From positions 310,001 to 374,000 of the forward strand of contig NZ_PVTF01000007.1 of assembly GCF_003002815.1 (NCBI RefSeq): 64,000 bases of DNA. The letters run 5' to 3'. The stretch comes from Umezawaea tangerina. Lineage in GTDB: Bacteria > Actinomycetota > Actinomycetes > Mycobacteriales > Pseudonocardiaceae. Numbering within the stretch: position 1 is the stretch's first letter; every line of letters starts with the position of its first letter. The notes under the pieces were generated by a model. That model did no database searches. It saw only the letters and a list, made by a program, of their open reading frames with translations, and was not told the origin of the DNA. This document shows, in pieces, positions 15,772 through 44,105 of the stretch. The position numbers and the translations under genes were made by a program.

Positions 15772-18700
15772 CTACGCCGCGGTGCCCGCGATCCGGCCGA
15801 GCGCGGCCAGCAGCCCGTCGGCGACGAGATGTGCCGTGTCGGCGGGCAGCAGCGCTTCGTCGACGCGGACGCGGATCTCGAAGTCGGCGGTCGTGGGGTT
15901 CCTGTCGACCTCGACGGACAACGGGATCTCGTTGCGGTCGCTGGACCACCAGTCGACCGGCTCGACCGTCGTGAGGTCGGCCAGCCGGTCCAGGACGTGG
16001 AAGTCGGCGAAGTTGAACCGCACGTGGAACAGCGGCGCGCCGTGGTCGCGCTGGACCTCGGCCAGCGGGAACCGGCGGAACGGCGCGCTGTCGCGTTCGA
16101 AGGCGGCGACCGCGGCGATCAGCTCGTGGTCGCCCATCGCCGCGGGGCGGACGCGCAGGGGCAGGGTGTTCAGGAAGAGGCCGAGCACCTGGTCGGCGCC
16201 AGGTGACTCGGGGCGTCCGTTGACCACGACGCCGGTCGCGACCTCGTCCACGTCGAGGACTTGTCGGACGGCCCGCACGTGCGCGGCCAGGTAGACGCAC
16301 TTGGTGGGCACGCCCAAGGCGAGCGCGACCCGTCTGACCTCTTCGGACAGTCCGGAAGGGACGGTGACCACCGCGTCGGGGTCCATCCGGGGCGGTCGGC
16401 TCCCGGCGGCGGTCGGGGGGAGCGGGGGAGCGGGGCGGGTGGTGGCCGTCCAGTGCGAGCGGATCTCCGCGGACCGGAGGTCGGCGCGTTCGAGCCGGAC
16501 GAAGTCGTGGTACCGGACGTCGGGCGGTGCGAGGGGCAGGTCGCGCTCGTCGTAGCGCAGCAGCAGCTCGGTCATCAGTGAGGCGAAGCTCCACCCGTCG
16601 AGGATCGTGTGGTGGGCCGTCACCGACAGGTGGTGGGTGCCGTCGGCGTGGGTGAGGACGTGGCAGCGCCACAGCGGGGCGGACCCCAGGTCGAAGCCGC
16701 GCTGCCACTCGGTGGCCCACCACCGCCGCAGGGCCTCGTGCGGGTCGGCGGACGTCGCCTCCCGTACGGTCGGTGCGACCTCGACCGACCGGTGCACCAG
16801 CTGCAGCGGCTCGGAGTACGCGCCCAGGTCGAACGACGTGCGCAGGACGTCGTGCCGGGCGGCGAGGTCGCGCAGGGCGCGGCGCAGGGCGTCGGGGCGC
16901 AGCGGTCCGCGCAGCCGGACGGACACGAGGTCGTGGTAGAGGGTCGGGTCGTCCGCCATCTCGCAGTGGAAGGCGATCCCCATCTGCAACGCCGACACCG
17001 GGTAGGCGTCCTCGACGTCGTCGGGCAGCGCGGCGCGGTCGGCGGGCGACAGGAGCGCGGTCCGGTCCGCCGGTGGTACGGGAGCGGTGCGCGACACGTG
17101 CGCGAGCCCGGAGACCGTCGGCGTGCGGAACAGCTGGGCGACGGTGACGTCGAGCCCGCGGGCGCGGGCCGCGCCGACCGCCGCGAGCGCGGTCATGGAG
17201 TCGCCGCCGAGCGCGAAGAAGTCGTCGGTGGGGGAGACGGCGGGCAGCCGCAGGACCTCCGCCCAGATCCCGGCCAGCACGCGTTCGGTGTCGGAGCCCT
17301 GGCCGGGCGGGGTCGTCCGGTCGACCGGTGCGGGGGCGGCCTCGGATCGCGGTGCCGCGCTCCGCCGGGACAGCACGGTGTCGGGGGAGTCCACGGCGGT
17401 GCGCAGGAACCGCAGGTACCCGTCGAGCATCGCGTTCGCGGTGCTTTCGGTGAACAGCGCCGAGTCGTACTCGGCGGAGAACGCGGTGCCGTCCGGCGCC
17501 TCCCGCACCTCCACCAGGAGGTCGAACCGGGACGTGCCCGCGTCGACGTCCACCATCCGTGTCCGCAGACCGTCCAGGCGCGGCTCGAACCCGGTCGTGC
17601 CGTGGTGGGTGAAGGCCACCCGCACCAGCGGCCGGTGCGAGCGGTCGCGGTCCCGGCCGACCACCTCCGCGACGATCCGGTCGAACGGGACGTACTGGTG
17701 GTCCACCGCGGCCAGCGCCTGTCGGTGCGCCGCCCGCACCGCGTGCCGGAACGTCGACCCCGGCGCCGCGGTGAGGCGGATCGGCAGCGTGTTCGCGAAG
17801 TACCCGACCACGTCGTCGAGCTCGGGGCCGGGACGGCCGGACGACGGTGAGCCGACGACCACGTCGTCGACCCCCGCGAGGTCGGCCACGACCTGCCCGT
17901 ACGCGGCGAGCAGCACGGCGTACGGGGTGGCGTTCTCGGCACGGGCGAGCGCCGCCACGGCCTGCCGCAGGTCGGCGGGCGCGAACCGGGTGAGCCTGCG
18001 CCCGGCGAACGCGGGCTCCGGCGGTCGGGGGTGGTCCGCGGGCAGCTCCAGCGCGACCGGCGCCCCGTCGAGCGTGGTCCTCCAGAACGTCAGCCCCGCG
18101 GACGGGTCGACCGACCGCTCCCACGCCACGTGGTCGGTGAACGTCCGCGCCGGGCCGTCCTCCCGGAAGGTGCCGTTGTACCGGTCGGCGAGCTCGCGCG
18201 ACAGCACGTCCACCGACCAGCCGTCGGCGACCAGGTGGCTGACGACCACCACCAGCAGGTGGTCGCCGTCGGGCAGCGCCATGATCTCGGCGCGGAGCAG
18301 GGGAGGGCGGGCGAGGTCGAACGGCCGGGCCGCGAGGCTCCTGGCGCGCCGCGCGGCCTCGGGCTCGTCGGGCACGCGGACCAGCCGTGCCAGCCCGCGC
18401 GGCGCGGTGCCGACCGACCGGACGGGGCCGTCGGCGCCCAGGGTGAACCCGGTGCGCAGCGACTCGTGCCGGGCGACCGCCTCGTCCACGGCCTGTGCCA
18501 GCCGCGCCGTGTCGAGGTCCCCGTGGACCCGGACGGCGGCGGTGATGTTGTAGGCGCTGCTCGCCTGCGGGGACAGCTCGGCCAGGAACAGCAGGTTGGC
18601 CTGGTTCGACGACAACGCCGTGGGGTCGCCCGGCGAGGGTTCCGCGGGGTCGACGGCCGTCCGCTCGGACAGCAGGGCGGCCACCGCGGCGGGGGTGCCC

Positions 18701-20429: not shown

Positions 20430-21158
20430 TCACACCGGTGTCGTCGGCCGCGGGCGCAGCTCGCCCAGCAGCGCGTCCCGGTGCTCGTGCAGGAAGTGGT
20501 GGCCGCCCGCCAGCTGCCGCAGGTCGCACCGCGCGGTGGTGTGCGCCCGCCAGTCCCGCAGGCGCGCGGGGTCGAGCCCGCGGTCGTCCACTCCGGACAG
20601 CACGGTGATCGGGCAGTCCAACGGCGGACCCGGCGCCATCCGGTACCGCGCGGTCGCCGCCAGGTCCGCGCGCACGGCGGGCAGCACGAGCTCGCGCATC
20701 TCGGGGTCGGCCAACGCCCGCACGTCCGCGCCTTCCTTGCGCAGCAAGGAGACGAGGTCGTCGTCCGGGAGGTGGTCGGGGAACGGCGGGCGCGGCGACC
20801 GCGGCGCCGCGCAGCCCGCGACGACCAGGGACTCCGGACCGGGGTGGCCCCGGCGCACGAGCGCGCGGGCGGTCTCGAACGCGACGAGCGCGCCCATGCT
20901 GTGCCCCAGCAGCACGTAGGGCAGCCGCGGCAACGAGGTGATGGCGACCGCGACGTCGTCGGCCAGCTCCTGCACCGACTCCGGCGGCGGGTCGGCCAGG
21001 CGCTCGGCCCGGCCGGGGTAGCGCACCGCGCGGACCTCGAGCCCGGCTCCCGCGTCCAGCCAGTCGCGGAACACCGCGGCGCTCCCACCCGCGTGGGGAA
21101 GCAGGAACAGCCGGGTCGACGCGCCGGGCCGCCCCTTGCCCAGGAACGGACCCGTCAC
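20430..21158 (-). CDS. Type II thioesterase
   Basis: A 242-residue alpha/beta hydrolase of the type II thioesterase family, which clears mis-primed carrier proteins in NRPS and PKS systems. The nucleophile motif GHSMG has its Ser at 87, after the family opening LFLLPHAGGSAAVFRDW; the catalytic His is in GGHHFLHEH near the C-terminus. The GTG start overlaps the stop of the Cys-coded NRPS gene (GTGA), so the two are co-translated. The Thr-coded NRPS gene follows 32 bp downstream. It is the only thioesterase visible in the cluster. Confidence 0.93.
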   Translation of the reverse strand: MTGPFLGKGRPGASTRLFLLPHAGGSAAVFRDWLDAGAGLEVRAVRYPGRAERLADPPPESVQELADDVAVAITSLPRLPYVLLGHSMGALVAFETARALVRRGHPGPESLVVAGCAAPRSPRPPFPDHLPDDDLVSLLRKEGADVRALADPEMRELVLPAVRADLAATARYRMAPGPPLDCPITVLSGVDDRGLDPARLRDWRAHTTARCDLRQLAGGHHFLHEHRDALLGELRPRPTTPV

Positions 21159-23539
21159 CGGGCCTGCTCGGCTTCGAGCAGCTCGTCCACCAGCGCCGCG
21201 AACCCGGCCAGCGAGGGCTCGGTGACCAGGGCGCGCAGCGGCACCCGGACGCCGAGGTGGTGGCGGAGCCGGGCGATGGCGCGGGTCGCGGCCAGCGAGT
21301 GGCCGCCGAGGTCGTAGAAGTTGTCGTCCGCCCCGATGCCGCCGACCCCCAGCGTCTCGGCCCACACCTCGCCGATCCTCGCCTCGGTGGCGCTGAGCGC
21401 CCGCCCACCCCCGCGGCCGGTCGGGGCGGGCAGCGCCCGCCGGTCGACCTTCCCGTTGTCGGTCAACGGGATGCGGTCCAGCAGGACCACCGCGGTGGGC
21501 ACCGCGTGCGGCGGCAGGACCAGGGCGAGCGCGGCCCGGACGTCGGCCGCCGTCACGGTGTCGGACGCGGGCACGACGTACCCGACGAGCTCCGCGGTGT
21601 CCCCGTCGCGGCGGGCGTGCGCCACGCCGCGCTCGACCAGCGGCGACGACGCCAGCGCCGAGTCGACCTCCCCGAGCTCCACCCGGTGGCCGCGCACCTT
21701 GACCTGGTGGTCGAGCCTGCCCAGGAACTCCATCGTCCCGTCCGGCCACAGCCGGACCCGGTCGCCGGTCCGGTACATCCGGGATCCGGGTTCGCCGAAC
21801 GGGTCCTGGAGGAACGCGGCCGCGGTGAGCTCCGGCGCCCCGAGGTAGCCGCGGGCGAGGCAGTCGCCCGCGACGTACAGGTCCCCCGGCACGCCCTGGG
21901 CCACCGGGCGCAGCGCGGAGTCGAGCACGTACCGGCTCACGTTGCGGATGGGGTGCCCGTAGGGGATCGACGTCCACGCCGGGTCGACCTCGTCGAACCG
22001 GAAGTAGTTGCTCCACACCGTGGTCTCGGTGGGGCCGCCCAGCGCGACGACCTCGGTGCCGGGGAACGCCTCGTGGACCGCGGTGGGCAGCGCGACCGGG
22101 ATCCAGTCGCCGCTGAGCAGGACCAGCCGCAGCGCCGGCGCGCCCCCGGTCGGGAGGGGTTCCAGCTGCGCCAGCGCCGCCGGGGCGGAGTTCCACACGG
22201 TGACCGGCTCGGTGCGCAGGAGGTCGAGCAGCCTCGCGGGGTCGACCGCGGCCTCCTCGGCGGGCATCCGGACCCCGGCGCCGACGAGCAGCGGACCGAA
22301 CACGCTGTAGACGGACAGGTCGAACGCCAGCGGGGTGACCAGCAGCGCCAGGTCGGCGGGGCCGACGGCGAACGTGTCGTTCGCCCAGTCCAGCAGGTTC
22401 GTCACCGCGCCGTGCGGCACCTGCACGCCCTTGGGGACCCCGGTGGAGCCGGAGGTGAACAGCACGTAGGCCAGCTCGTCGGGACCGACCTCGGGCGGGC
22501 TCCACGGCGTCCCCGCCACCGGCAGGCCGTGCACGCGGACACCCGCTCGACCGGCGGCGGCGTGGACGGTCCCGGCGGGCTCGTCGTCGTCGAGCCACAC
22601 CAGGTGCGCCGGGCCGGTCGTGGCGAACTGCTCCTCGGCCCGGTCCGGCGACACGACCGCGACGTCCGCGGCCACGGCCGCCAGGACCTGCTCGACCCGC
22701 CGCCGCGGCCACGTGCGCTCCACGGGCACGTACGCCGCTCCGGCACGCATGATCCCCAGCATCGCGGCGACGGCCAGCGGACCGCGGTCGACCACCAGCG
22801 GCACGAGGTCACCGGTCCGCACGCCGAGGCGGTGCAGTGCGGCGGCCACCCGGTCCGCGGTCGAGACCAGCTCCGCGTAGGTGAGCGACCGGTGGTCGCC
22901 CACCACCGCGACCGCGTCCGGGGTGGCGCGCGCCTGGTCCTGGACGCGGTCGTGGACAGCGCCCGTCCGCCGCGCGGTGGTGGGCCCGGACCGGACGGCC
23001 AGCGCCCGGTCGGACTCGCCCACGCCGCTCAGCGCGCCCACCGGCGTGACCGGGGCGGCGGTGGCGAGCTGGTCGAGCAGCCGCAGGAAGTGGTCGAGCA
23101 CCCGCCGGACGTCCACCTCGGCCTGCGCCGACGGGTCGAACGAGGCGTGCCCGAGGTGGTCGGTGCCGTCGGTCGGGAGCCGGACGTCCAGGTGCGGCCC
23201 GGTCCGGTCCGGCCCGACCGAGATCGTCGCCTCGCCGACGTCCACCCCGGCGGCGGCCGCGACCCGGTCCAGGTACTCGGCCACCGGGGTGTCCGGCCAG
23301 AAGGGCACGTCCACACCGGCGTCGCCGCGGTGGAACCGGACCTCCGCCTCCCCGGCCAGCTCGACCAGCGCCAACGACCACGCGGCCAGTGCCCGCACCT
23401 CCCACGCCGTCCGCGGCGGGCTCCCGGAATTCCGGGTCGCCTCGCGCACGACCCGGAATGGAATCCCGTCGAGATTTGTCCCATTGTCATCGACAACGGG
23501 ATTGCCGAACCTGATTCGAGTCGGCTTCCACGTTCGCAT
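21155..23539 (-). CDS. Non-ribosomal peptide synthetase, A(Cys)-T with degenerate N-terminus
   Basis: A 794-residue NRPS. Residues 1-185 match only the end of a condensation domain (about 125-178, VLDHFLRLLDQLATAAPVTP); no HHxxxDG motif is present, so this part is a remnant or docking region. Adenylation spans about 190-690 (A3 FTSGSTGVPKG at 361), and the carrier Ser is S748 in LGGHS. The specificity residues D407 L408 Y411 N450 L474 S476 L500 V508 W509 give DLYNLSLVW, close to the cysteine code DLYNLSLIW. No heterocyclisation domain is attached. It starts the minus-strand NRPS operon, divergent from the free C-domain gene, and overlaps the thioesterase gene by a GTGA. Confidence 0.92.
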   Translation of the reverse strand: MRTWKPTRIRFGNPVVDDNGTNLDGIPFRVVREATRNSGSPPRTAWEVRALAAWSLALVELAGEAEVRFHRGDAGVDVPFWPDTPVAEYLDRVAAAAGVDVGEATISVGPDRTGPHLDVRLPTDGTDHLGHASFDPSAQAEVDVRRVLDHFLRLLDQLATAAPVTPVGALSGVGESDRALAVRSGPTTARRTGAVHDRVQDQARATPDAVAVVGDHRSLTYAELVSTADRVAAALHRLGVRTGDLVPLVVDRGPLAVAAMLGIMRAGAAYVPVERTWPRRRVEQVLAAVAADVAVVSPDRAEEQFATTGPAHLVWLDDDEPAGTVHAAAGRAGVRVHGLPVAGTPWSPPEVGPDELAYVLFTSGSTGVPKGVQVPHGAVTNLLDWANDTFAVGPADLALLVTPLAFDLSVYSVFGPLLVGAGVRMPAEEAAVDPARLLDLLRTEPVTVWNSAPAALAQLEPLPTGGAPALRLVLLSGDWIPVALPTAVHEAFPGTEVVALGGPTETTVWSNYFRFDEVDPAWTSIPYGHPIRNVSRYVLDSALRPVAQGVPGDLYVAGDCLARGYLGAPELTAAAFLQDPFGEPGSRMYRTGDRVRLWPDGTMEFLGRLDHQVKVRGHRVELGEVDSALASSPLVERGVAHARRDGDTAELVGYVVPASDTVTAADVRAALALVLPPHAVPTAVVLLDRIPLTDNGKVDRRALPAPTGRGGGRALSATEARIGEVWAETLGVGGIGADDNFYDLGGHSLAATRAIARLRHHLGVRVPLRALVTEPSLAGFAALVDELLEAEQAR

Positions 23540-23720: not shown

Positions 23721-24983
23721 ATGAGCACGGGTTCTCCGACTTTGTCGGTGACCACGCCGATATTCGGCGACAAGATGCCGATATCACTGGCCCAGCGCGA
23801 ACGGCTGCTGCTGTGGTGGGGAAACGAGTACTGCCTCGACCAGCCGACTTACGCGTGGATATTCCCTGGCAGGATCGACGTGGAGGTCGTCGAGGTCGCT
23901 TGGGGACGACTTCTGTCCCGTTTTGGCAATCTGCGCGCGAGGTTCGTCGCGGACTCCGTCGACGACATCCACCGGGTTGATTCCGCGCTTTCGGGTGCGA
24001 TCGACGCCACGTTCGTCGCCACTGATGGCGGACATTTCTTCGACGAATTGTGCGCACCGTTGACCGTACTGGGTGGCGCACTCACTCGGATGGTCCATTC
24101 GATCGACGGTGATGAGACGCTGATAGGCGTCTGCTTCGACCACCTCGTGATCGACGGGCACACGCTCCGGATGATTCTGTCCGAATTGTGGGGATTGCTC
24201 CGGAATGAGTCGCCGGCCGGTCCGGCGCCGTTGTCCGACGAGGCGTTCATCAGGCGCGAACGCGACGCCGCGCTGTCCCCGGCGGTCGAGCGTGACCTCG
24301 ACTACTGGCGCGAGACGTCGGGTGGGCTCACCTACCCGCCGTTCTTCGCCGACCTCGAGCGCGACCCCGCCGTCCCCGCCGCGCCGGAGACCTCGGTGAC
24401 GGCCGTCGACCTGTCCGGACCGGCGGACCGGGCCCGGATGTCACGGGCCGCCGCGCTGCTCGCGGCCGTGACGGCCTCGCTCGCCCGGACGACCGGCACC
24501 GGGTCGGGGCACTTCACCACCCTGGTGCAGGGCGCGCGCCGCACCAACCGGTCGGAGCTGCGGATGGCGGGGTTCCTGTCCACGTGGCTGCTCGCGAAGG
24601 TCCCTGTGGGAGCGACCGTCGACCAGGCCTCAGGCGCACTGCTGCGCGCGATGGGCGCCCACAGCGTCCACCACGCCGAGATCGTCCGGCGGCTGGAGCC
24701 CCACCACTACGGGGCGCGCTACCGGCGCACCGAGGCGCTCCCGCCGTACGCGCTGTTCAACTTCCAGGGCGCGGCCGAGCCACCGCGCCTGGCGGGTGGG
24801 CTGGGGCGGGTGCTCACCGTGCCGCCGGTGCCGGGCAACGTCCTGCACGGCGGCCTCCGGGTCTACGGCACCGAGCGGGAGGGCACCGGGGCGGTCGACG
24901 TCCGGGTCGTCGCGGACGCGGCGGTCCTCGGCACCGGGTTCGCCGACGCGGTCGCCGCCGACCTGGCGGCGGCGGGGTCGTGA
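23721..24983 (+). CDS. Free-standing NRPS condensation domain
   Basis: A 420-residue protein consisting of one condensation-type domain. The active-site motif is F-D140-H141-L-V-I-D-G, so the first His of HHxxxDG is Asp while the catalytic second His remains. Later features include GFLSTWLLAKVPVG (the usual G-F-N-LP-R region) and a LPPYALFNFQG strand. Stand-alone C domains act in trans to form an amide or ester or to offload a chain. It opens the plus-strand block C-MFS-carrier-P450-A; the stop overlaps the MFS start (GTGA). The first 150 codons use several rare ATA and other A/T-ending codons unlike the neighbours. The ATG at 23721 has a GGGGAGG Shine-Dalgarno. Confidence 0.9.
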   Translation: MSTGSPTLSVTTPIFGDKMPISLAQRERLLLWWGNEYCLDQPTYAWIFPGRIDVEVVEVAWGRLLSRFGNLRARFVADSVDDIHRVDSALSGAIDATFVATDGGHFFDELCAPLTVLGGALTRMVHSIDGDETLIGVCFDHLVIDGHTLRMILSELWGLLRNESPAGPAPLSDEAFIRRERDAALSPAVERDLDYWRETSGGLTYPPFFADLERDPAVPAAPETSVTAVDLSGPADRARMSRAAALLAAVTASLARTTGTGSGHFTTLVQGARRTNRSELRMAGFLSTWLLAKVPVGATVDQASGALLRAMGAHSVHHAEIVRRLEPHHYGARYRRTEALPPYALFNFQGAAEPPRLAGGLGRVLTVPPVPGNVLHGGLRVYGTEREGTGAVDVRVVADAAVLGTGFADAVAADLAAAGS

Positions 24984-26198: not shown

Positions 26199-26465
26199 AT
26201 GGACCGCGACCAGTTCCACCGCACCATGACCGACTTCCTGACCGGTCTCGACGAGGACGGCGACGCCGTCGAGGTCGGACCGGACGACAACCTGTTCGAC
26301 GAAGGGCTCGTCACCTCCTTCTCCGTGGTCGGGATGATCACGCACCTGGAAGGGCTCGTCGGGCACCCGATCGACGTGTCGCGCTACGGCGTCGAGCGGT
26401 TCTACACGATCGGCGGCCTGTACGAGGTCGTCCTGGCGGAGGAGGCGCTCCGTGCGGGTGCGTGA
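26199..26465 (+). CDS. Discrete acyl/peptidyl carrier protein
   Basis: An 88-residue carrier protein. The phosphopantetheine attachment Ser is S40 in NLFDEGLVTSFSVV, closer to the DltC-type D-G-L-DSF motif than to the GGHSL of NRPS modules. The predicted four-helix fold ends with a long AEEAL helix. It overlaps the start of the P450 gene by 14 bp and precedes a free A domain, so it most likely holds the amino acid that the P450 oxidises, as in NikP1/NikQ- or NovH/NovI-type systems. Which A domain loads it is inferred from position only. Confidence 0.85.
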   Translation: MDRDQFHRTMTDFLTGLDEDGDAVEVGPDDNLFDEGLVTSFSVVGMITHLEGLVGHPIDVSRYGVERFYTIGGLYEVVLAEEALRAGA

Positions 26466-34335: not shown

Positions 34336-34336
34336 G

Positions 34337-36535
34337 CTAGCGGACGAGGGCCGCGTCGAGGTCGTCCGCGGTCCGCACGTGGCCCCAGAACTCGTGGAGC
34401 CAGCGCAGGACGTCGTGCATGATGTGGTGGTCCTGGTTCGGGCGCAGCGCCCCAAGCTGGAAGAACATGACGCCCTCGCTGGGCGGCCCGAGGAACGTGA
34501 GCCGCTCGTCGGCCGAACCGCCGGACCGGACCGGGTGGAAGCCGTCGGTCAGGTCGAGCCCACCGGGCTCGAAGTCCGGCGCGCCGTCCTGGCCGGGGTT
34601 GCGCCACTTGCGGACCAGTCCGCGCCGCAGCAGGTTCGGGTAGATCGGTGAGAGGTCGGCCTCCGGGTCGAAGGAGTGCACCCTGGCGTCGACCAGGACG
34701 TCGAAGTCCCGTTCGACTCCGGTGTCCCGCCCGGTGACCCGCCACCGGCCGTCCACCCCGCGCACGCTCGCGCCGGGACCGACGGACACGTCGAGCAGCC
34801 CGTGCTCGACGAGCGCGAGCATCTTCTCCATGACCTCCAGCGCGGCGCCGTTGGCCAGCCGGTTGTGGTGTCGCATGTAGACGTCGAGGAACGTCCGGTG
34901 CGACCGGGCGGTCAGCCCGCCGAAGTCCACCGCGTGCGCGAGCACCGGCCGCAGGTCCCGCCAGACGCCGTCGGCTGCGGCCTTGACCGGGTTGTCGACG
35001 TTGTTCTGGTCGGCCCGCAGGTGGTCCAGCCGCATGAACTCCAGCAGCGCCTCGCGGAAGCCGTCCTCGCCCACCGTGCCGTCGACCGGCTCGATGGTGT
35101 CCTTCCAGGAGAACGCGTTGCCCGCCACGGTGGTCTCGTTGCCCCACGGCGACGTGGCGGCCGCCACGGCCGCGGCGAACGAGGCCGGGTCGTCGAGCAG
35201 CCCCGCCAGCTCCGCGGCGGCCGCCTCGCCGTACACCACGTGCAGGAAGCGGCGCAGCGCCGCGGACAGCAGGGGGTCGGTCCCGGCGATCGGCCGTTCA
35301 CCGCGCAGGACGGCGTCCAGGACGGCCGCCATCGTGGTGAACGCCTGCTCCAGCGGGCGCAGCAGCACGCGCTGGGCGCCCTCGGGGTCGACGTCGCCGC
35401 CCGCGTCGCGCAGGAACGCCTCGAACGCGGGCCGGGCGGCGTCGGCGAGCGCGGCACCGGCGTCGGGACCGAGCAGCGTGGTGTGCTGCAGCAGCGCCAT
35501 CTCCAGCAGCACGATCGGGAGGATGTGCCGCTCGAAGTCCAGCTGGCGGCGCACCCGGTCGCCGATGAGGACGGGGGAGCCGACCGCGGCCCGCAACCGG
35601 TCCACGGCGCCCTCGGTGAGGAACACGCCGCGGTGCTCCAGGTTCGCGAGGTCGCGCTCCTTCGCGTTGAACGGGCGGGCGAAGGTGAACAGGCCCGAAC
35701 CGCTGAACGCCAGGATCGACGCGGGCTCGCGGCCCGACGGCCGGTAGACCAGTCGGCCGTCGACCTCGTCGTAGGTGCCGCCCCGGCCTTCGGTCAGGTG
35801 CAGGACGACGTCGATAGCCGTCAGGCCCATGCCGGCGCACCCGATGGACTGGCCGGGCGCCACGACGTCCTCCGGCAGCCCCACCTCCAGCGGGTACACC
35901 GAGGACACGAAGGTCGCCGGGCCCTTGGCGGCGAACTCGGCCCACGCGCGCTGCCGGGGCAGCGACGCGGGGTCGTTCGCGGAGTGCCCGGTGAGCATCA
36001 GCACGTGGTCGACGACCCCCTGGGCGGCGCCGTCCGCGGTGACCGGGCGCAGGCCGTCGGCCTGCTCGACCAGGTCGACCACCTCGGTGCCGTGCAGGAG
36101 CACGTCGATCCGGGGGTGCGCCCGCAGCAGGTCGAGGTAGGTCCCGAACTGCTCCCGCAGCGCGAGCCCGTGGACGTAGCGCTTGGGCCAGTCCTCCGGG
36201 CTCAGGTCGAACGACGGGTCGCCCGTCTCGTCGAACTTGGTCCGGCACCACTCGTGCAGCGTCGGGCGCAGCTCCCTGGGCAGCAGCGGGCCCGCGTCCG
36301 ACACGCTCTCGTCCGCCGCGAAGGCGACCTGGCCGACGATCCGGTTGAGGAAGCTCGTGGTCGGCTGCTCGGCGCTGTGCACCTCGCCGTCGCCGAAGTG
36401 CCCGGAGCGGTCGTACACGTGGATCTCCAGCGAGGTCCCCTCGCCCAGCGAGTCCGCGGTGGCGGCGAGCCGCTCCATCACGTACGTCGCGCTGGGGCCC
36501 GCGCCGATCACCGCGAGGCGGACGGTCCTGCCCAT
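34337..36535 (-). CDS. FAD/NAD(P)-binding oxidoreductase (NAD_binding_9-like), phosphonate operon
   Basis: A 732-residue cytoplasmic flavoprotein. It begins with a Rossmann motif, LAVIGAGPSATYVMERLA (residues 6-23), and a second nucleotide-binding segment is near 225 (SIGCAGMGLTAIDVVLHL). The C-terminal third carries conserved-looking DARVHSFDPEADLSPIYPNLLRRGL and FLGPPSEGVMFFQLG. It resembles the large FAD-NAD(P)-binding family found in several antibiotic clusters, whose members oxidise amines or amino acids; the reaction here is unknown. Its start overlaps the transaminase stop by one base (TGATG), so an amino-phosphonate made by the transaminase is the most natural substrate. That is inference from linkage only. 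Confidence 0.75.
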   Translation of the reverse strand: MGRTVRLAVIGAGPSATYVMERLAATADSLGEGTSLEIHVYDRSGHFGDGEVHSAEQPTTSFLNRIVGQVAFAADESVSDAGPLLPRELRPTLHEWCRTKFDETGDPSFDLSPEDWPKRYVHGLALREQFGTYLDLLRAHPRIDVLLHGTEVVDLVEQADGLRPVTADGAAQGVVDHVLMLTGHSANDPASLPRQRAWAEFAAKGPATFVSSVYPLEVGLPEDVVAPGQSIGCAGMGLTAIDVVLHLTEGRGGTYDEVDGRLVYRPSGREPASILAFSGSGLFTFARPFNAKERDLANLEHRGVFLTEGAVDRLRAAVGSPVLIGDRVRRQLDFERHILPIVLLEMALLQHTTLLGPDAGAALADAARPAFEAFLRDAGGDVDPEGAQRVLLRPLEQAFTTMAAVLDAVLRGERPIAGTDPLLSAALRRFLHVVYGEAAAAELAGLLDDPASFAAAVAAATSPWGNETTVAGNAFSWKDTIEPVDGTVGEDGFREALLEFMRLDHLRADQNNVDNPVKAAADGVWRDLRPVLAHAVDFGGLTARSHRTFLDVYMRHHNRLANGAALEVMEKMLALVEHGLLDVSVGPGASVRGVDGRWRVTGRDTGVERDFDVLVDARVHSFDPEADLSPIYPNLLRRGLVRKWRNPGQDGAPDFEPGGLDLTDGFHPVRSGGSADERLTFLGPPSEGVMFFQLGALRPNQDHHIMHDVLRWLHEFWGHVRTADDLDAALVR

Positions 36536-37683
36536 CAGGCGGCACCCCCGGTCCGGACGGCGGGCAGCACCCGGTCGAGCGCGCTGAAGAAGCCCTTGAT
36601 GTCGGCCTCGTCGAGCTGGCCCATGTTCGCGACCCGGAACACCGCGCCCAGCTCCTCCTGCACGCCGTACACCACGTAGCCCTCGTCCTTCAGGCCGTCG
36701 TGCAGGTCGGCGTAGCGCACGCCGTCGGGCACCATGACGTTGGTGACGCTGTTGCTCCAGTGCTCGGCGGGCAGCAGGAACTCCATGCCCCGTTCGGCGA
36801 GCCCCGCGCGGACCTGCGCCGCGAGCTCGGCGTAGCGGGCCGCCCGGCCGGTGACGGTCTCCTCCAGCACCAGGTCGAGCGCCTGCTCGAAGGCGAACAT
36901 CACCTGCACCGCGGGCGTGAACAGCGGCGCGCCCACGATCGCCTGGCCGCGGTAGTGGCCGTGCAGGTCGAGGTAGAACGTGTGCGCCGGCACGTCGGCC
37001 AGCTCCTCGAAGCGGGACCTCGGCGCGCAGACGAAGCTGACGCCGGGCAGGCCCTCCAGGCACTTGTTCGCCGTGGCCACGCACCAGTCGACGTGGTCGG
37101 CCAGCATGTCGAAGCTCTCCGCGCCGACGCTGCTGATCGCGTCGACCAGCAGGGACCGGCCCAGCCGGTGGGTGATCTCGCCGATGGCGCGGACCGGGTT
37201 GAGCATCCCGGTGCTGGTCTCGTGGTGGACCATCGCCACGTGGGTGATCGTCGGGTCGTCCACCAGCGCCCGCTCGACCGCCGCCGGGTCGATCGGGTTG
37301 GTCCAGCCGAACTCCAGGTACGTCTCGTCGATGCCGTGGGTGGCCACGATGAGGTGGATGCGCAGGCCGTAGTTCCCGTTGTCCAGCACCAGGATCCGGC
37401 CGTCGGCGGGGACGACCGACGAGACGGCCGCCTCCAGCGCCGCGGTGCCCGACCCCGCCAGCAGCACGCTCGTGCAGGTCTCGTCGCCGCCGCACACCGC
37501 GGTGGCCTTCGCCCGGACCCTGGTCATCAGGTCGGCGACCTCGGGCTCGCGGTGGCAGACGTCGGGGTAGGCCAGCGCGGAGCGGACCCGCTCGTGCACG
37601 TTGACCGGGCCGGGGTTGAGCAGGACCGTCCTGGACGGCGGAGGTGCGGCCTTTCCGTACTTCGACGCGAATGCGTCCGGCAT
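36535..37683 (-). CDS. 2-aminoethylphosphonate-pyruvate transaminase-like enzyme (PhnW family)
   Basis: A 382-residue class V PLP aminotransferase close in size to PhnW (about 367). The PLP lysine is K207 in TANKCLEGLPG, with the ring-binding Asp at D181 (VDAISSVGAES). It opens with the family signature VLLNPGPVNV and CHREPE. PhnW interconverts phosphonoacetaldehyde and 2-aminoethylphosphonate with pyruvate/alanine. Without a decarboxylase gene nearby, an alternative substrate is a C3 phosphonoaldehyde or phosphonopyruvate itself. It is the first gene of the phosphonate/NRPS operon, divergent from the 38328-44105 operon. The ATG at 37683 was chosen because similarity begins there. Confidence 0.88.
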   Translation of the reverse strand: MPDAFASKYGKAAPPPSRTVLLNPGPVNVHERVRSALAYPDVCHREPEVADLMTRVRAKATAVCGGDETCTSVLLAGSGTAALEAAVSSVVPADGRILVLDNGNYGLRIHLIVATHGIDETYLEFGWTNPIDPAAVERALVDDPTITHVAMVHHETSTGMLNPVRAIGEITHRLGRSLLVDAISSVGAESFDMLADHVDWCVATANKCLEGLPGVSFVCAPRSRFEELADVPAHTFYLDLHGHYRGQAIVGAPLFTPAVQVMFAFEQALDLVLEETVTGRAARYAELAAQVRAGLAERGMEFLLPAEHWSNSVTNVMVPDGVRYADLHDGLKDEGYVVYGVQEELGAVFRVANMGQLDEADIKGFFSALDRVLPAVRTGGAA

Positions 37684-38681: not shown

Positions 38682-39667
38682 CGACATCGAGGGCCGAACG
38701 ACCCGGCACCGGCACCACCACGTTGAAGCGGTCGATCCTGGTGCTCGACCCGATCGACGAGACCGCGCTGCGCAGCCTGGAGGAGGACTTCGACGTCCGC
38801 GTCCGGTTCCAGCCGCCGGAGGCGGAGCTGCGGGAGCTGGTCCGCGACGTCGACGTGCTGATCGTGCGCAGCGGTGTCCGGATCGACGCGTCCGTGGTCG
38901 CCGCCGCCACCCGGCTGTCGCTGGTGTGCCGCGCGGGTTCGGGCACCGACAACCTCGACCTGGTCGCGCTCGCCGCGGCGGGCGTGCGGGTCTTCAACGT
39001 GCCGGGCGGCTCGTCCGCGGCCGTGGCCGAGCTGGCGCTGGGCCTGACCTTCGCCGTCGCCAGGAAGATCGCCCTCGCCGACCGGCAGCTGCGGGAGGGC
39101 ATCTGGGACAAGCCCCGCCTCGCGGGCCGCGAGCTGGGCGGCAGCGTGCTCGGTGTGGTCGGCCACGGCGCCATCGGCTCGCGGGTCGCCGCGCTGGGGC
39201 GTGCGCTGTCGATGCGGGTGCTGGTCACCTCGCGCCGCGACGACGAGGAGTACCGCCGCGGCGTCACGGCGAGCGGCGCGGAACCGGTCGGCCTCAAGGA
39301 CCTGCTCGCCTCCTCCGACGTGGTGTGCCTCGCCGTCCCGCTCACCGACGCCACCCGCGGGATGGTCGGTGCGGGCGAGCTGGCGCTGATGAAGGACTCC
39401 GCGTTCCTGATCAACGTCGCCCGTGCGGGTGTCGTCGAGGAGGACGCGCTGCTGGCGGCGTTGCGGGACCGGACGATCGCGGGTGCCGGCCTCGACGTGG
39501 TGTCCAACGAGCGCACCCGCAGCCCGTTCGCGGACCTCGACAACGTCGTCCTGACCCCGCACATCGGCGCGATGTCGCTGGACGCGCAGCGGCGGATCGG
39601 CGAGATCGTGGTCGACTCGATCCGCACGGCGCTGACGGGCGGCGACATCGCGAACGTGGTGTGCTGA
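38678..39667 (+). CDS. D-2-hydroxyacid dehydrogenase (phosphoglycerate dehydrogenase-like)
   Basis: A 329-residue NAD-dependent dehydrogenase of the SerA/D-lactate family. The nucleotide motif is GHGAIG (162-167), and the catalytic triad appears as R249 (INVARAG), E278 and H295 (LTPHIGAMS). The ACT regulatory domain of housekeeping SerA is absent. Family enzymes interconvert 2-oxo and 2-hydroxy acids, so reduction of phosphonopyruvate to phosphonolactate is a natural proposal and would pull the unfavourable PEP mutase step. The TTG at 38678 is chosen as start because a GAGAGGA Shine-Dalgarno precedes it and it overlaps the upstream stop. Confidence 0.85.
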   Translation: MTTSRAERPGTGTTTLKRSILVLDPIDETALRSLEEDFDVRVRFQPPEAELRELVRDVDVLIVRSGVRIDASVVAAATRLSLVCRAGSGTDNLDLVALAAAGVRVFNVPGGSSAAVAELALGLTFAVARKIALADRQLREGIWDKPRLAGRELGGSVLGVVGHGAIGSRVAALGRALSMRVLVTSRRDDEEYRRGVTASGAEPVGLKDLLASSDVVCLAVPLTDATRGMVGAGELALMKDSAFLINVARAGVVEEDALLAALRDRTIAGAGLDVVSNERTRSPFADLDNVVLTPHIGAMSLDAQRRIGEIVVDSIRTALTGGDIANVVC

Positions 39668-39669
39668 GC

Positions 39670-40701
39670 GTGCCGACCACGACGATGGCGGCCGCCGTCC
39701 TGTCGCGCGACCGGGTCATCGAGCACCGGTCCGTCGACCGCCCCGAGCCCGGACCCGGCGAGCTGCTGGTGCGGGTGAGCCGCACCGGGATCTGCGGGTC
39801 CGACCTGGCCACTTACGCCGGGCACCACCCGTACAAGACCGCGCCGGTGGTGCTCGGCCACGAGCTCAGCGGCCACGTGGTGAGGGTGGGCGCGGACGTC
39901 GAGGGGTTCGCCGAGGGCGACCGGGTCTGCTCGGCCGCGTTCTCCCACTGCGGGGAGTGCGTCGACTGCGCGGCCGGGGCCACGAACCGGTGCACGAGCA
40001 GGCTCAACCTCAGCCACCTCGGCTGGGAGGGGTCGTTCGCGGAGTACGTGCTGCTGCGCCCGAACATGGCCTTCCGGCTGCCCGCCGAGGTGGACGACGA
40101 ACTCGGCGCGCTGGTCGAACCGCTGTCCATCGGGCTGCACGCCGTGCGGCTCGCCACCGGCGTGGCGGGCGGCGACGTCGCGGTGCTCGGCACCGGCGGC
40201 ATCGGGCTGAGCTGCCTGGTGGCCGCGGTCCGACTGGGCGCCCGCGCCGTCACGTGCGTGGACATCGGGACGCAGAAGCGCGCCCTGGCACTGGAACTGG
40301 GCGCCGAGTCCTTCGTGGACGGAGCCGACCCCGGTGCGGTGCCCACCGGCGCGGACGTCGTGCTGGTGGCCTCCGGTCACCCCGGCGCGCTCGCGCAGGC
40401 GGCGGCGATGACCAGGCCCGGCGGCGAGGTGGTCGTGGTCAGCTACTTCGACCGACCGCAGGACGTCGACCTCAACCCGCTGGTGTCGCAGGAGGTCGTG
40501 GTCCGGTTCTCCGCGCTGTCCACGGCGGCGGACTTCACCGAGGTGATCGGCTGGCTGGAGCGCGGCGAGGTGGACCCGCGCCCGATGGTCACGCACAGGT
40601 TCCCGCTGGCCGCCGCCGACGAGGCGATGCGCGTGCTGGCGAAGGGCGGCCCGGTGGGCAAGGTCGTCCTGGCGGTCTCGGACGGGAGGGGTGGGCGATG
40701 A
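39670..40701 (+). CDS. Zinc-dependent alcohol dehydrogenase (MDR family)
   Basis: A 343-residue medium-chain dehydrogenase like sorbitol or threonine dehydrogenases. Catalytic Zn ligands are C42 (GICGSD) and H64-E65 (GHELSGH), and the structural Zn cysteines are C94, C97, C100 and C108. The Rossmann motif is VLGTGGIGLSC near 180. In this operon it could oxidise the C2 alcohol of a dihydroxypropyl- or hydroxypropyl-phosphonate to a ketone, or reduce an aldehyde. It follows the hydroxyacid dehydrogenase by 2 bp, and its stop overlaps the ArgC-like start (ATGA). An alternative GTG at 39661 would add three residues. Confidence 0.9.
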   Translation: MPTTTMAAAVLSRDRVIEHRSVDRPEPGPGELLVRVSRTGICGSDLATYAGHHPYKTAPVVLGHELSGHVVRVGADVEGFAEGDRVCSAAFSHCGECVDCAAGATNRCTSRLNLSHLGWEGSFAEYVLLRPNMAFRLPAEVDDELGALVEPLSIGLHAVRLATGVAGGDVAVLGTGGIGLSCLVAAVRLGARAVTCVDIGTQKRALALELGAESFVDGADPGAVPTGADVVLVASGHPGALAQAAAMTRPGGEVVVVSYFDRPQDVDLNPLVSQEVVVRFSALSTAADFTEVIGWLERGEVDPRPMVTHRFPLAAADEAMRVLAKGGPVGKVVLAVSDGRGGR

Positions 40702-41789
40702 GCGGCGGAGGACGTGACCTCGTGGTCGGCGTGGTCGGCGCGGCGGGGTACACCGGGGGCGAGCTGTGCAGGCTGCTGCTCGGCCACCCGGACGTCGGCA
40801 CGATCCTGCCCGCGGTGCGCGACGACCGGTCGTTCGAGCGGACCCACCCCAACCTCGCGGGCTCCGGCCTCGTGTTCACCACCGTGGACGAGCTGGAGGC
40901 GCGGGCGGTGGACCTGGACGTGGTGTTCTTCTGCACCCCGACCGGCCACGCCATGCTGGCCGCGCGGCACTACCTGGACGCGGGCGCGGTCGTGGTGGAC
41001 CTCAGCGCGGACTTCCGGTTCGCCGACCCGGCCGCCTTCGAACGCGCCCACGGGGTGGTGCACGCGGCGCCCGAACTGCTCGACGAGGCCGTGTACGGCG
41101 CCACCGAGCTGAACCGGGACCTGGTGCGCAAGGCGCGCCTCATCGCCAACCCCGGCTGCTACGCCCTCACCGCCGTGCTGGCGCTGGCCCCGCTGCTCGA
41201 CGCCCGCGGCGACGGGATCCACGACGTGGCCGTGCACGCCGTCAACGGCACCACCGGGGCGGGCACCACGCCGAAGAAGGACCTGGCCCACGCCGAGGTC
41301 TTCGGGTCCATGCTCGCCTACAGCCTCGAAGGCCACCGCCACGGACCCGAGCTCGAGGCCGTGTTCGGCGCGCTGACCGGCCACGAGGTCGGCGTGGACC
41401 TCAACACCACGCACGGGAACTTCGCCAGGGGCATCCACCTGCAGGCCAACGTCCGACTCACCGGACCGACCTCGCGCGCGGAGCTGCTGGAGACCTACAC
41501 CCGGTTCTACGGCGCGGGCCACGACGGCGAGTTCTTCGTGCTGGTCAACGACAACGCCCGCACCGGGAAGATCAACGACAAGCAGTACGACCTGTACCCG
41601 AGGCTGGCCGACGTGGTCGGCTCGAACTTCTGCCACCTCGGCCTCGACCACGACGCCGACCGGAACGTGGTGAAGGTCGTCGCGGTCACCGACAACCTCG
41701 TGAAGGGCGCGGCCGGGTCGGCGATCCAGAACATGAACGTCGCACTGGGCCTGCCCGAGACGGCGGGGCTGCGCGCGTATGCGCTCTGA
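40698..41789 (+). CDS. ArgC-like acyl-phosphate reductase
   Basis: A 363-residue homologue of N-acetyl-gamma-glutamyl-phosphate reductase. NADP binding is at GAAGYTGGELCRLL (residues 14-27) and the catalytic Cys is C154 in IANPGCYALT. Such enzymes reduce an acyl phosphate to an aldehyde through a thioester. No other arginine genes are present, and the next gene is a PGK-like kinase that could make the acyl phosphate, so this pair would convert a carboxylate to an aldehyde. An acyl phosphate of phosphonolactate is the suggested substrate (inference). ATGA overlap upstream and 11-bp overlap downstream. Confidence 0.88.
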   Translation: MSGGGRDLVVGVVGAAGYTGGELCRLLLGHPDVGTILPAVRDDRSFERTHPNLAGSGLVFTTVDELEARAVDLDVVFFCTPTGHAMLAARHYLDAGAVVVDLSADFRFADPAAFERAHGVVHAAPELLDEAVYGATELNRDLVRKARLIANPGCYALTAVLALAPLLDARGDGIHDVAVHAVNGTTGAGTTPKKDLAHAEVFGSMLAYSLEGHRHGPELEAVFGALTGHEVGVDLNTTHGNFARGIHLQANVRLTGPTSRAELLETYTRFYGAGHDGEFFVLVNDNARTGKINDKQYDLYPRLADVVGSNFCHLGLDHDADRNVVKVVAVTDNLVKGAAGSAIQNMNVALGLPETAGLRAYAL

Positions 41790-42984
41790 GACCGGCACCG
41801 CCCCGGCGCTGCGCGGAGTGCCGCTGCTGAGGGACGCCCCCCTCGGCCGCGGGCAGCGGTGGATCTACTCGGCGGGCTTCAACGTGACCCCCTCCTCGCG
41901 CCGGTCGGAACGCCTCGACACCGAGCTGGCCGACCTCGGCCTCCTGCTGCGCGCGGGCTGCCGGGTCGCCCTGCTCTCGCACCAGGGCGAGCACGGCACC
42001 GCGCTCGCCCTGGACTTCGTCGCCGACCACCTGCGCGCCCGGCTGGCCGCGCCGGTGGACTACCACCCGGTCAACACCGGTCCGGACGCCGCGCGGCGCG
42101 CGGAGCGGATCGGGCCGGGGGAGCTGGTGGTGTTCGGCAACACCCGGCACCACGCGGGCGAGACGGCGGGCGACCCCGCCCTGGCCGCGGAGTTCGCCGC
42201 GCTGGGCGACCTCGTGGCCGCGGGCGGGTTCTCCAAGGCGCACCGCGCCCACGCCTCCAACGTGGGGATCATGGCGTTCCGACCGGGTTTCCTGGCCGAC
42301 AGCGTCGTGCGCGAGGTGGAGCTGCTGGCCCCGTGGGCGGGCGCGCGCGACAACCTGGCCTCCGTCGCGGTCCTGGGCGGGAGCAAACCGGAGAAGACGC
42401 TGACGGGGCTCGCCCACGTCATGGACACCTACGACGTCGTCGTCCCGGGTGGGGTCGTGCTCAACACCCTGTTGCGCGCCAAGGGGTACGACGTCGGCGG
42501 GTCCGAGCTGGGCTCCCGGCCGGAGGAGTGCCTGGCGGTGGCGCGGGACGTGCTGGGACGGCCGCACCGGGCGGAGCTGCTGCTCCCGGACGAGGTCGTC
42601 GTGGCACCCCCGACCGGACCGGCGCGCACGGTCCGGGTGTCCGACGGTGTGCCACCCGGTCACGCCGTGGTCGACCTCGTGGTGTCCGCCGCGACGAGGG
42701 CCCGGCTCACCCACCTCGCGACCCGTGGCGCGAGGGCGTTCGTCGCGGGGCCACCCGGCCACTGCGCACGTGGGTTCACCACGGGGTCGGGGCACCTGGT
42801 CGACCTGCTGACGGCACCCGCGGTCGACCTGCTCCTGCTCGGCGGGGACACCGCGGCGGAGCTGCCCTGGGACGGACCGGTGTCCACCGGCGGAGGATCG
42901 GCCCTGCACTACCTGGCCCACGGCACCTGCCCGGCGCTCGACGCGCTGCGCGGGTCACCCGCGACCGAGGAAGGCGACACATGA
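41779..42984 (+). CDS. Phosphoglycerate kinase-like enzyme
   Basis: A 401-residue divergent PGK. Family landmarks remain: GFNVT at 33-37 (PGK VDFNVP), LLSHQG at 66 (SHLGRP), NTRHHAGE near 121, KAHRAHAS at 153-160, AVLGGSKPEKTL at 197-208 (GGAKVSDKI) and GGDTA and STGGGSALHYL near the end. Substrate-side residues differ: the Asp of VDFN is Gly and the Arg of SHLGRP is Glu, while the Arg of the NTRH and AHRAHAS motifs are kept. That suggests a kinase for a carboxylate resembling, but not identical to, 3-phosphoglycerate; phosphonolactate is the obvious analogue. Its tight overlaps with the ArgC-like and Fe-ADH genes show one operon. Housekeeping PGK normally sits with gap and tpi, which are absent. 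Confidence 0.85.
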   Translation: MRSETGTAPALRGVPLLRDAPLGRGQRWIYSAGFNVTPSSRRSERLDTELADLGLLLRAGCRVALLSHQGEHGTALALDFVADHLRARLAAPVDYHPVNTGPDAARRAERIGPGELVVFGNTRHHAGETAGDPALAAEFAALGDLVAAGGFSKAHRAHASNVGIMAFRPGFLADSVVREVELLAPWAGARDNLASVAVLGGSKPEKTLTGLAHVMDTYDVVVPGGVVLNTLLRAKGYDVGGSELGSRPEECLAVARDVLGRPHRAELLLPDEVVVAPPTGPARTVRVSDGVPPGHAVVDLVVSAATRARLTHLATRGARAFVAGPPGHCARGFTTGSGHLVDLLTAPAVDLLLLGGDTAAELPWDGPVSTGGGSALHYLAHGTCPALDALRGSPATEEGDT

Positions 42985-44105
42985 TCATCGACCTGCCCGT
43001 TCCCACCGAGGTCGTCTTCGGTCGGGGGAGCTCGCTGGAGCTCGGCTCGCGGACCCGCGCGCTGGGCGGCCACGCCCTCGTCGTGACCGGGCGCCACGCC
43101 CTGCGCCGGGCGGGCGTGCTCGACGCGCTGCTGGGTGTCCTGCACGACGCGGGCGTGCGCACGACGACGTTCGACGCGGTGTCCCCGGACCCGAAGGCGA
43201 GCGAGGTCGACGCCGCCGTGGCGGTCGCCACCCGCGAGGGCTGCGACGTCGTCGTGGGGCTCGGCGGTGGCAGTGCCATCGACGCCGCCAAGGCGATCGC
43301 CGTCGGTCTGCGGTTCGGCCCCATCGGCCCCCTGGTCGGGCGGACGCTGGACGACGTCACCGACCTGGTGCCCGTGGTGGCCGTCCCGACGACCGCGGGC
43401 AGCGGGGCCGAGGTCACCAAGGGCTCGATCATCACCGACACCGAGCGGAACCTGAAGTCCGGCATCCGCGGCACCGCCCTGTTCCCCCGGCTCGCGGTCG
43501 TCGACCCCGGACTGCTCGCCACCGTGCCGCTCGCGGTGGCCGTGGAGTCCGGGTTCGACGCGCTGGCGCACGCCGTGGAGGGCTACCTGGCTCGGCGTTC
43601 GACCGAGCAGTCCCGCGAGTTCTCCGTGCGCGCGCTGGGGATCCTCGGGGCGCGCCTGCCCGAGGTCGCCGCCGGTCGCGCGGACGACGCCGTGCTGGAC
43701 GACATGGCGATGGCGGCGCTGCTGGGCGGGGCGAACGTGGCGCTGGCCAGCACCTGCCTGCCGCACCGGCTGCAGCAGGCCATCGGGTCGGTGCCCGGCG
43801 TGCCGATCTCCCACGGCCGGGGGCTGGCCGCGGTCTACCCGGCGTGGGTCGACCGCGTCCGCCCGCACGCCGCGGGCAGGCTCGACGAGGTGGCCCGCAT
43901 GCTCGGGCACGACGACCCCGCCGAGGCGATCGCCGCCCTGCGCCGGGTCGCGGGGCTGGAGGCCGACCTGCGCGAGCACGGGTTCGAGCCGAAGCACGTC
44001 GACGACTTCGTGGCCGCCGTGACGGGGAACCTCGACAACGACCCGATCCCGGACCCCGACACCGACCTGCTGCGCGAGCTCTACGAACGGTCCTTCACCC
44101 GGTAG
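42981..44105 (+). CDS. Iron-containing alcohol dehydrogenase
   Basis: A 374-residue group III alcohol dehydrogenase. NAD binding is at VVGLGGGSAIDAAKA (around 88), and metal ligands include the Asp of ESGFDALAHAVEGY and the His residues of that segment and of ISHGRGLA. Fe-ADHs in phosphonate clusters (PhpC, DhpG) reduce phosphonoacetaldehyde to 2-hydroxyethylphosphonate; here the aldehyde made by the ArgC-like enzyme is the likely substrate, giving a dihydroxypropylphosphonate. It is the last gene of the operon and starts in an ATGA overlap with the kinase gene. Confidence 0.88.
   Translation: MIIDLPVPTEVVFGRGSSLELGSRTRALGGHALVVTGRHALRRAGVLDALLGVLHDAGVRTTTFDAVSPDPKASEVDAAVAVATREGCDVVVGLGGGSAIDAAKAIAVGLRFGPIGPLVGRTLDDVTDLVPVVAVPTTAGSGAEVTKGSIITDTERNLKSGIRGTALFPRLAVVDPGLLATVPLAVAVESGFDALAHAVEGYLARRSTEQSREFSVRALGILGARLPEVAAGRADDAVLDDMAMAALLGGANVALASTCLPHRLQQAIGSVPGVPISHGRGLAAVYPAWVDRVRPHAAGRLDEVARMLGHDDPAEAIAALRRVAGLEADLREHGFEPKHVDDFVAAVTGNLDNDPIPDPDTDLLRELYERSFTR

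Follow-up and report, generated by a model that had tools for sequence, protein, structure and literature searches.

Organization of the locus

A 64,000-nucleotide stretch of Umezawaea tangerina (hereafter the window; it lies on contig C7, and the actinobacterial genome measures 10.68 Mb) carries a gene for a phosphoenolpyruvate (PEP) mutase, pepM, among genes for nonribosomal peptide synthetases (NRPSs) and beside an operon for five enzymes of central-metabolism type. Our study reads the locus, with about an even chance of being right, as a strain-specific cluster whose product would be an aminophosphonate oxygenated at nitrogen, probably attached to a peptide and made by a route through PepM, a phosphoglycerate-dehydrogenase-like enzyme (PGDH), a phosphoglycerate-kinase (PGK) homologue, an ArgC-type reductase, an iron and a zinc alcohol dehydrogenase (Fe-ADH, Zn-ADH), a PhnW-like aminotransferase and a flavoenzyme of the FzmM class. 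Genes were called by codon usage, and 28 of them, from 12126 to 52013, were scanned against Pfam and NCBIfam; a family absent from the VIA-align list is not thereby excluded. Every part named in an earlier note on this DNA was found where it had been placed (Table 1), and no Rfam match at the gathering threshold and no tRNA were found in the window.

The pepM operon, on the reverse strand, holds the aminotransferase, the flavoenzyme, PepM, a major facilitator superfamily (MFS) exporter and an NRPS with adenylation, thiolation and epimerization domains (A-T-E), spaced by -1, 85, 2 and 18 bp. The mutase with its EDK-X5-NS motif does share this operon with the four other genes, as the note had it, but it is a gene of its own and is not fused into the NRPS. 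Also as described there, two further NRPS operons, A and B, adjoin it back to back on the left (15772-23449, reverse strand; 23748-29114, forward strand), with 17 bp between the end of the second at 29114 and the start of the A-T-E gene at 29132, and a "C3 operon" (38723-44105, forward strand) encodes PGDH, Zn-ADH, ArgC, the PGK homologue and Fe-ADH with spacings of -7, 20, -11 and -4 bp. Right of the Fe-ADH gene follow a PdxH-like gene and an enolase gene on the reverse strand; the parts expected between 15772 and 44105 are present, but the right end proposed at 44105 does not hold, as the set runs on to the enolase.

The phosphonate enzymes

PepM carries EDKLFPKMNS, an intact form of the motif found in all 28 PepM family members listed. 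Its best NCBIfam model is TIGR02320 (PEP_mutase, 296.3 bits), followed by phosphonopyruvate hydrolase (264.6), methylisocitrate lyase (164) and carboxyphosphonoenolpyruvate (CPEP) mutase (112.8), and its nearest solved chain is the PEP phosphomutase 5unc (2.5e-95); the broad Pfam family has four more matches in the genome, of which one is weak. The conversion of PEP to phosphonopyruvate by PepM is well supported by this sequence evidence; identity as a CPEP mutase was rejected on its score. The genome encodes no phosphonopyruvate decarboxylase over cut-off (best match 41 bits against 312.5), and phosphonopyruvate would therefore be drawn off by another enzyme. Hydroxyacid dehydrogenases are a published draw-off (PMC12871164).

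The flavoenzyme has the three-domain fold of FzmM (8cp2, 8cp5), its closest solved relative. Counterparts of FzmM N62, R266, R409, R412 and R577 are kept in 21 of 21 flavoenzymes. Among the residues that hold aspartate in FzmM, R13 becomes S or T, R276 becomes E, N413 is variable (N in one of the 21) and R416 becomes A, G or I; R577 is kept in all, in a region where the model has low pLDDT.

The PGK homologue of the C3 operon is divergent, its 149.5 bits (PF00162) comparing with 461 for the housekeeping PGK elsewhere in the genome. It retains the SHQG, GNxR, HRxHAS and GGG motif blocks in alignment with PGKs, and the residues that would hold 3-phosphoglycerate are mostly kept and in part lost. 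Of 393 further genomes sampled from the class none has it (E <= 1e-45), and of 392 Streptomyces genomes four do (E <= 1e-40), all four with pepM within ~12 kb; two of these were known beforehand (L053, and L051, on which the sample was centred).

Recurrence of the gene set

A PepM match (E <= 1e-40) is present in 21 of 397 genomes of the order, this genome included, and two of them, G150 and G219, also have the aminotransferase, the flavoenzyme and the entire five-gene set. Three aligned flavoenzymes served as the query for a scan of genome contigs; that of G219, whose locus appears again as L057, was one of them. The 25 loci recovered were compared by clustering of called genes with a flank of 10 kb, so that absence means absence within that flank; in the Pfam scan of the relatives' proteins, one protein was in shortened form. 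PepM, aminotransferase and flavoenzyme occur together in 22 of the 25; L058 and L060 have no PepM or aminotransferase in the flank, and the L074 locus is incomplete. Half of the 22 (11) have both halves of a split thiamine-pyrophosphate (TPP) decarboxylase and none of the five genes, and 10 have PGDH or more of the five genes and no decarboxylase within the flank. All five are present in nine of those 10, the flank of L054 ending at PGDH. Besides the window, ten loci combine the five genes with the trio (L051, L052, L053, L055, L056, L057, L059, L061, L070 and G150). It is the recurrence of the same genes together in other genera that argues against a chance grouping.

In Clavibacter sp. VKM Ac-2873 (L070:8886-18484), the genes for aminotransferase, flavoenzyme, PepM, PGDH, Zn-ADH, ArgC, PGK and Fe-ADH are consecutive, each pair of neighbours either overlapping or no more than 56 bp apart. 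This single operon, along with the recurrence described above, strongly supports the C3 operon as belonging with the phosphonate genes. The same gene set is accompanied by distant PepM proteins in L056, L057, L061, L074 and G346, placed in the PepM tree on long branches that leave the placement unsure.

The decarboxylase was scored for one pair, that of L064. Its C-terminal half matches TIGR03297 phosphonopyruvate decarboxylase at 132.7 bits and sulfopyruvate decarboxylase beta at 130.7, and its N-terminal half matches sulfopyruvate decarboxylase alpha at 99.2 and TIGR03297 at 94.7, all under cut-off; we call the pair a phosphonopyruvate decarboxylase because of its pepM context. At such loci the aminotransferase presumably acts on P-CH2-CHO and the flavoenzyme on P-CH2-CH2-NH2.

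The L070 operon is followed by genes that cluster with NTP_transf_5, with F17 (a family without a Pfam match) and with FomA-like kinases. An amino-acid-kinase-family gene at L064:7967-8839 has the FomA fosfomycin kinase as its best NCBIfam model (176.2 bits against a cut-off of 550), and this family, F4, a candidate for self-protection, has 15 members across the gene set of the 25 loci. On these matches, relatives may protect themselves with a FomA-like kinase; none of the family is among the 28 window genes scanned.

Proposed pathway

In the route that we propose, the PGDH-like enzyme would reduce phosphonopyruvate to phosphonolactate, the PGK homologue would phosphorylate its carboxylate, the ArgC-type enzyme would convert the acyl phosphate to 2-hydroxy-3-phosphonopropanal, and Fe-ADH would yield 2,3-dihydroxypropylphosphonate (DHPPA). 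These steps, in effect glycolysis reversed on a C-P analogue, are supported by gene content. Zn-ADH would then oxidize C2 to give 3-hydroxy-2-oxopropylphosphonate, the PhnW-like enzyme would aminate this to 2-amino-3-hydroxypropylphosphonate, and the flavoenzyme would N-hydroxylate the amine, giving a hydroxylamine or oxime. Co-occurrence, fold and residues suggest these last three steps. We would favor 2-amino-3-hydroxypropylphosphonate over 3-amino-2-hydroxypropylphosphonate because the ketone route keeps the frame of the decarboxylase loci and adds a CH2OH branch.

Genome G948 has PepM, an MFS protein, PGDH, ArgC, PGK and Fe-ADH together with an ATP-grasp amino-acid ligase. The 40 kb read there include neither aminotransferase nor flavoenzyme and, for Zn-ADH, a 30% match but no orthologue; its gene content fits DHPPA as an intermediate on which Zn-ADH acts afterwards. 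In G346 (L046:17243-19904) and G1093 (L113:7974-10633), transketolase-type and TPP enzymes lie beside the five-gene set and pepM; Zn-ADH together with these genes suggests another fate of the ketone, perhaps another type of phosphonate. Close to the Fe-ADH gene of G948 is also a gene for a DUF402 protein (L115:13725-14321), with homologues near the same gene set in L052, L055, G1093, G833 and G835.

The probable peptide part

That this is a phosphonate cluster with NRPS parts, as first proposed, is supported. The last domain of the A-T-E protein finds its best solved matches in bacitracin synthase 3 and PvdL, and then in tyrocidine and gramicidin synthetase chains that we take to be epimerization domains; an RTVGW motif, read by eye, likewise marks it as an epimerization and not a condensation (C) domain. 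The specificity codes extracted by script are DFWNVGMVHK and DFWSVGIVHK (M for I by eye), both Thr-like, and DLYNLSLVWK, Cys-like. The Cys- and Thr-type A domains of the earlier note thus reappear as codes, under presumptive labels taken from specificity-code tables. The A-T-E code, DFLMVAIIFK (G for A by eye), is not known to match any assigned code, and that of G150 differs (DVRHFALLAK); a specificity call for this domain was dropped. In L051, L053, L054 and the decarboxylase loci the A-domain codes lie near DIWEITADDK, and the single SbnA/SbnB pair tested (L064) scores over cut-off. The peptide parts would therefore differ from locus to locus while the phosphonate core stays constant.

The peptide would be supplied by the A-T-E protein, possibly with a contribution from the Cys/Thr NRPS operons, and the MFS proteins would export the product. 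The small carrier, the P450 and the stand-alone A domain may form a carrier-bound oxidation unit, whose product could be accepted by the T domain that lacks an A domain in the 1541-aa protein. Joining of phosphonate and peptide is likely, since the A-T-E gene lies within the pepM operon and G150 has A-T, C and exporter genes directly behind pepM. Of the phosphonate-containing peptide first suggested, the phosphonate and the NRPS parts stand, but operons A and B find no counterpart beside pepM in the relatives compared.

Table 1. Features of the phosphonate-NRPS locus, in window coordinates
Feature	Position	Strand	Basis
NRPS A(Thr-like)-T-C-T-C, 1541 aa	15772..20397	-	Pfam, code script
Stand-alone thioesterase	20430..21158	-	PF00975
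NRPS A(Cys-like)-T, ~165 aa ahead of A	21155..23449	-	Pfam, code script
Stand-alone condensation-like protein	23748..24983	+	PF00668 26.3 bits, below gathering score 30.6; weak solved C-domain matches
MFS exporter, NRPS operon	24980..26191	+	Pfam
Small carrier protein, weakly DltC-like under cut-off	26199..26465	+	NCBIfam; no Pfam match
Cytochrome P450	26452..27612	+	Pfam
Stand-alone A domain (Thr-like)	27609..29114	+	Pfam, code script
NRPS A-T-E, 998 aa	29132..32128	-	Pfam, code script, solved-chain matches
MFS exporter, pepM operon	32147..33388	-	PF07690; relatives adjoin pepM in G1093 (47%) and G948 (46%)
PEP mutase (pepM), 286 aa	33391..34251	-	TIGR02320 best model, under cut-off; 5unc nearest; motif
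FAD N-hydroxylase (putative), FzmM class, 732 aa	34337..36535	-	FzmM fold
PhnW-like class-V aminotransferase	36535..37683	-	TIGR03301 357.9 bits; 2-aminoethylphosphonate (AEP) transaminases nearest among solved chains
Pyridoxamine-phosphate-oxidase (PNPOx) remnant, 117 aa	38328..38681	+	internal gap compared with three relatives (213-219 aa)
PGDH-like 2-hydroxyacid dehydrogenase, proposed phosphonopyruvate reductase	38723..39667	+	PF02826/PF00389; kept near pepM in relatives
Zn alcohol dehydrogenase, proposed oxidation of DHPPA C2 hydroxyl	39661..40701	+	PF08240/PF00107
ArgC-type acyl-phosphate reductase	40722..41789	+	TIGR01850 304.6, over cut-off 233.6
Divergent PGK homologue, proposed phosphonolactate kinase	41779..42984	+	PF00162
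Fe alcohol dehydrogenase, proposed aldehyde reductase	42981..44105	+	PF00465
PdxH/PhzG-like PNPOx, intact	44116..44781	-	NF004231 166.7, over cut-off 129
Second enolase, role uncertain	44963..46243	-	TIGR01060

Alternative readings

Several observations weigh against the pathway that we propose. The aminotransferase falls just below the TIGR03301 cut-off (360.8), and W51, which stacks on the flavin in FzmM, is H in 21 of 21 flavoenzymes, with N413 and R416 near the flavin also changed. As the same two families occupy the decarboxylase loci, where phosphonoacetaldehyde and AEP would be handled, their substrate here is a guess. In G346 and G1093 the five-gene set and pepM come without an aminotransferase or flavoenzyme gene in 40 kb, and the product there is presumably a different one; L050 has the core trio, but its flank shows no decarboxylase and no five-gene set. 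The mutual exclusion of decarboxylase and five-gene set reflects few evolutionary events, because in the tree of flavoenzymes the decarboxylase loci group in a single clade (SH-aLRT 100). What other loci carry as a PNPOx gene is reduced to a remnant in the window, and to these points are added the differing A-domain codes, the lack of counterparts to operons A and B beside pepM in the relatives compared, and the fact that the window and G948 were likened to the valinophos cluster by its description and not gene by gene.

Two of the alternatives concern what the locus makes as a whole. It is doubtful that it makes two products, a phosphonate from 29132-44105 and an unrelated peptide from the Cys/Thr operons (15772-29114): relatives with the same phosphonate core do lack these operons in the stretches compared, and the stand-alone C-like protein occurs in just five of 297 family genomes (E <= 1e-12), this one included, at 26-29% identity in the other four, but the operons abut, the pepM operon itself contains an NRPS, A-T, C and MFS genes stand behind pepM in G150, and the loci L051, L053 and L054 have A and peptidyl carrier protein (PCP) genes, in L051 between pepM and the aminotransferase. 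It is extremely improbable that the locus makes no phosphonate because the mutase homologue acts instead as a phosphonopyruvate hydrolase or as a C-C lyase, the latter being a refutation offered by the earlier note; its TIGR02320 score does lie 23 bits below the curated cut-off (319.55), yet every rival model listed scores lower, the match to 5unc and the intact motif disfavor it, and in relatives this gene set comes with either of two PepM lineages that are distant from each other.

The others concern the nitrogen. The aminotransferase might make phosphonoalanine from phosphonopyruvate, a known branch (PMC11867202), with the flavoenzyme hydroxylating its nitrogen and the kinase, ArgC and Fe-ADH reducing its carboxyl; phosphonoalanine is an aspartate analogue, and the FzmM-like flavoenzyme keeps R577 of the aspartate site. 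We consider this unlikely, since the phosphonopyruvate transaminase PnaA belongs, in the literature covered, to the aspartate-aminotransferase superfamily and ours is PhnW-like, four of the five aspartate-holding residues are replaced, and PGDH and Zn-ADH are left without a task. The same replacements speak against an aspartate N-hydroxylase feeding nitrous acid or hydrazine into an N-N product, as in fosfazinomycin; FzmM is indeed the closest solved relative, but no aspartase/fumarase-type lyase is among the 28 genes scanned, and we hold this to be very unlikely. The route through DHPPA and its ketone to an N-oxygenated amine remains our preferred reading.

Boundaries and the second enolase

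The boundaries were examined against two genomes of the same genus, over 1-20000 and from 44101 onward. Stretches of 85-90% DNA identity, scattered over the sister chromosomes, occur in 1-12005 and from 49.9 kb onward; for 12005-20000 and 44101-49.58 kb the best sister matches, pieces under 200 bp excepted, are ~80% for the PdxH-like gene (44116-44781, matched elsewhere in both sisters), 72% to the housekeeping enolase and at most 72% for NRPS and flavin monooxygenase (FMO) genes. The gene set, enolase included, looks strain-specific. A long intergenic inverted repeat (49641-49770, by eye, without Rfam match) lies at the right edge of the strain-specific stretch, and the sister genome G408 has 19 listed places to which parts of 49583-49790 match at 82-90%. 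In G150 a PNPOx gene lies at the same place as the remnant, between aminotransferase and PGDH.

The enolase at the edge scores 662 bits (TIGR01060) and the genome's other enolase 678; its catalytic motifs, by eye, are ordinary. Counting this one, 13 of 150 family genomes have its isozyme lineage, among them G083, G090, G076 and G118, which have no pepM match at E <= 1e-40; in G150 and G346 it lies far from pepM. Around 12 enolase loci elsewhere (~4 kb), the only matches to window proteins apart from enolase itself are a P450 (31%), an ABC ATPase (30%), FecCD (38%) and the right-flank response regulator (57%). A copy of at least 70% identity occurs in six of 25 genomes with a flavoenzyme locus, and the isozyme is present in 3 of 4 genomes with the gene set against 10 of the other 146 (Fisher p 0.002), a comparison in which few of the 146 had been searched for that set and genome size is a confounder. 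Its absence from both sister genomes favors a role in self-resistance, but as a settled marker of self-resistance it was not upheld, the lineage occurring also in genomes without a pepM match. Duplicate target genes are a known sign in phosphonate clusters, as with lumazine synthase in flavophos (PMC12871164), and SF2312 is a natural phosphonate inhibitor of enolase (PMC12288639, PMC6863902). A peptide-carried N-hydroxylated 2-amino-3-hydroxypropylphosphonate, with P-C-C-N-O as in phosphonoacetohydroxamate and SF2312, could have enolase as its target and the edge enolase as protection, though we think this quite improbable.

Comparison with known systems

Valinophos of Streptomyces durhamensis has a DHPPA core, which the ATP-grasp enzyme VlpF joins to valine (PMC12723261), and a 2-hydroxyacid dehydrogenase gene near pepM, a pairing also met in the window. 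In the portion covered its description resembles G948, which shares PGDH, ArgC, PGK, Fe-ADH and PepM with the window and adds an ATP-grasp ligase. The window differs in adding Zn-ADH, aminotransferase, N-hydroxylase and NRPS genes, and no ATP-grasp ligase of the VlpF type is among its 28 genes. Among the papers listed in literature searches none was seen to link a PGK homologue with pepM, a negative of little weight since the valinophos, early-branch-point inventory and 10,000-genome papers lay outside the literature covered. That literature names no product for loci built in this way, in a comparison that did not extend to the phosphonocystoximate and hydroxynitrilaphos clusters.

PcxL of phosphonocystoximate oxidizes an aminophosphonate to an oxime (PMC10404684); the flavoenzyme of the window is likened to it by description of its class and to FzmM by fold, but it keeps one of five aspartate-binding residues of FzmM, and no decarboxylase over cut-off is encoded here. 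From phosphonoalamides the window differs in its class-V PhnW-like aminotransferase, which is not PnaA-like, and in the absence of an ATP-grasp gene among the 28 scanned. The phosphinothricin tripeptide pathway has a PepM, and there the differences are that this genome has no decarboxylase over cut-off and that the window mutase is not a CPEP mutase. The likeness is a phosphonate-type peptide assembled by NRPSs (PMC11867202).

The locus offers a testable phosphonate branch, in which five redirected central-metabolism enzymes would take the place of phosphonopyruvate decarboxylase, with an aminotransferase and an amine N-hydroxylase acting next. If true, the head-group is new, and whether or not PGK/ArgC, Zn-ADH and flavoenzyme genes accompany pepM would allow DHPPA-type, keto-type and N-oxygenated products to be told apart from sequence. 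It is important to note that the view of the cluster as unlike anything known was too strong: the family recurs, and an orphan phosphonate-nonribosomal-peptide hybrid cluster has been announced in Streptomyces sp. I6 (PMC6346202). Our L054 is probably that cluster, though I6 has two pepM genes (PMC12723261). L054 resembles the window in PepM (69%), aminotransferase (67%), flavoenzyme (60%) and PGDH (56%), and it carries SbnA/SbnB-family, A and PCP genes where the window instead has Cys/Thr NRPS, P450 and enolase genes.

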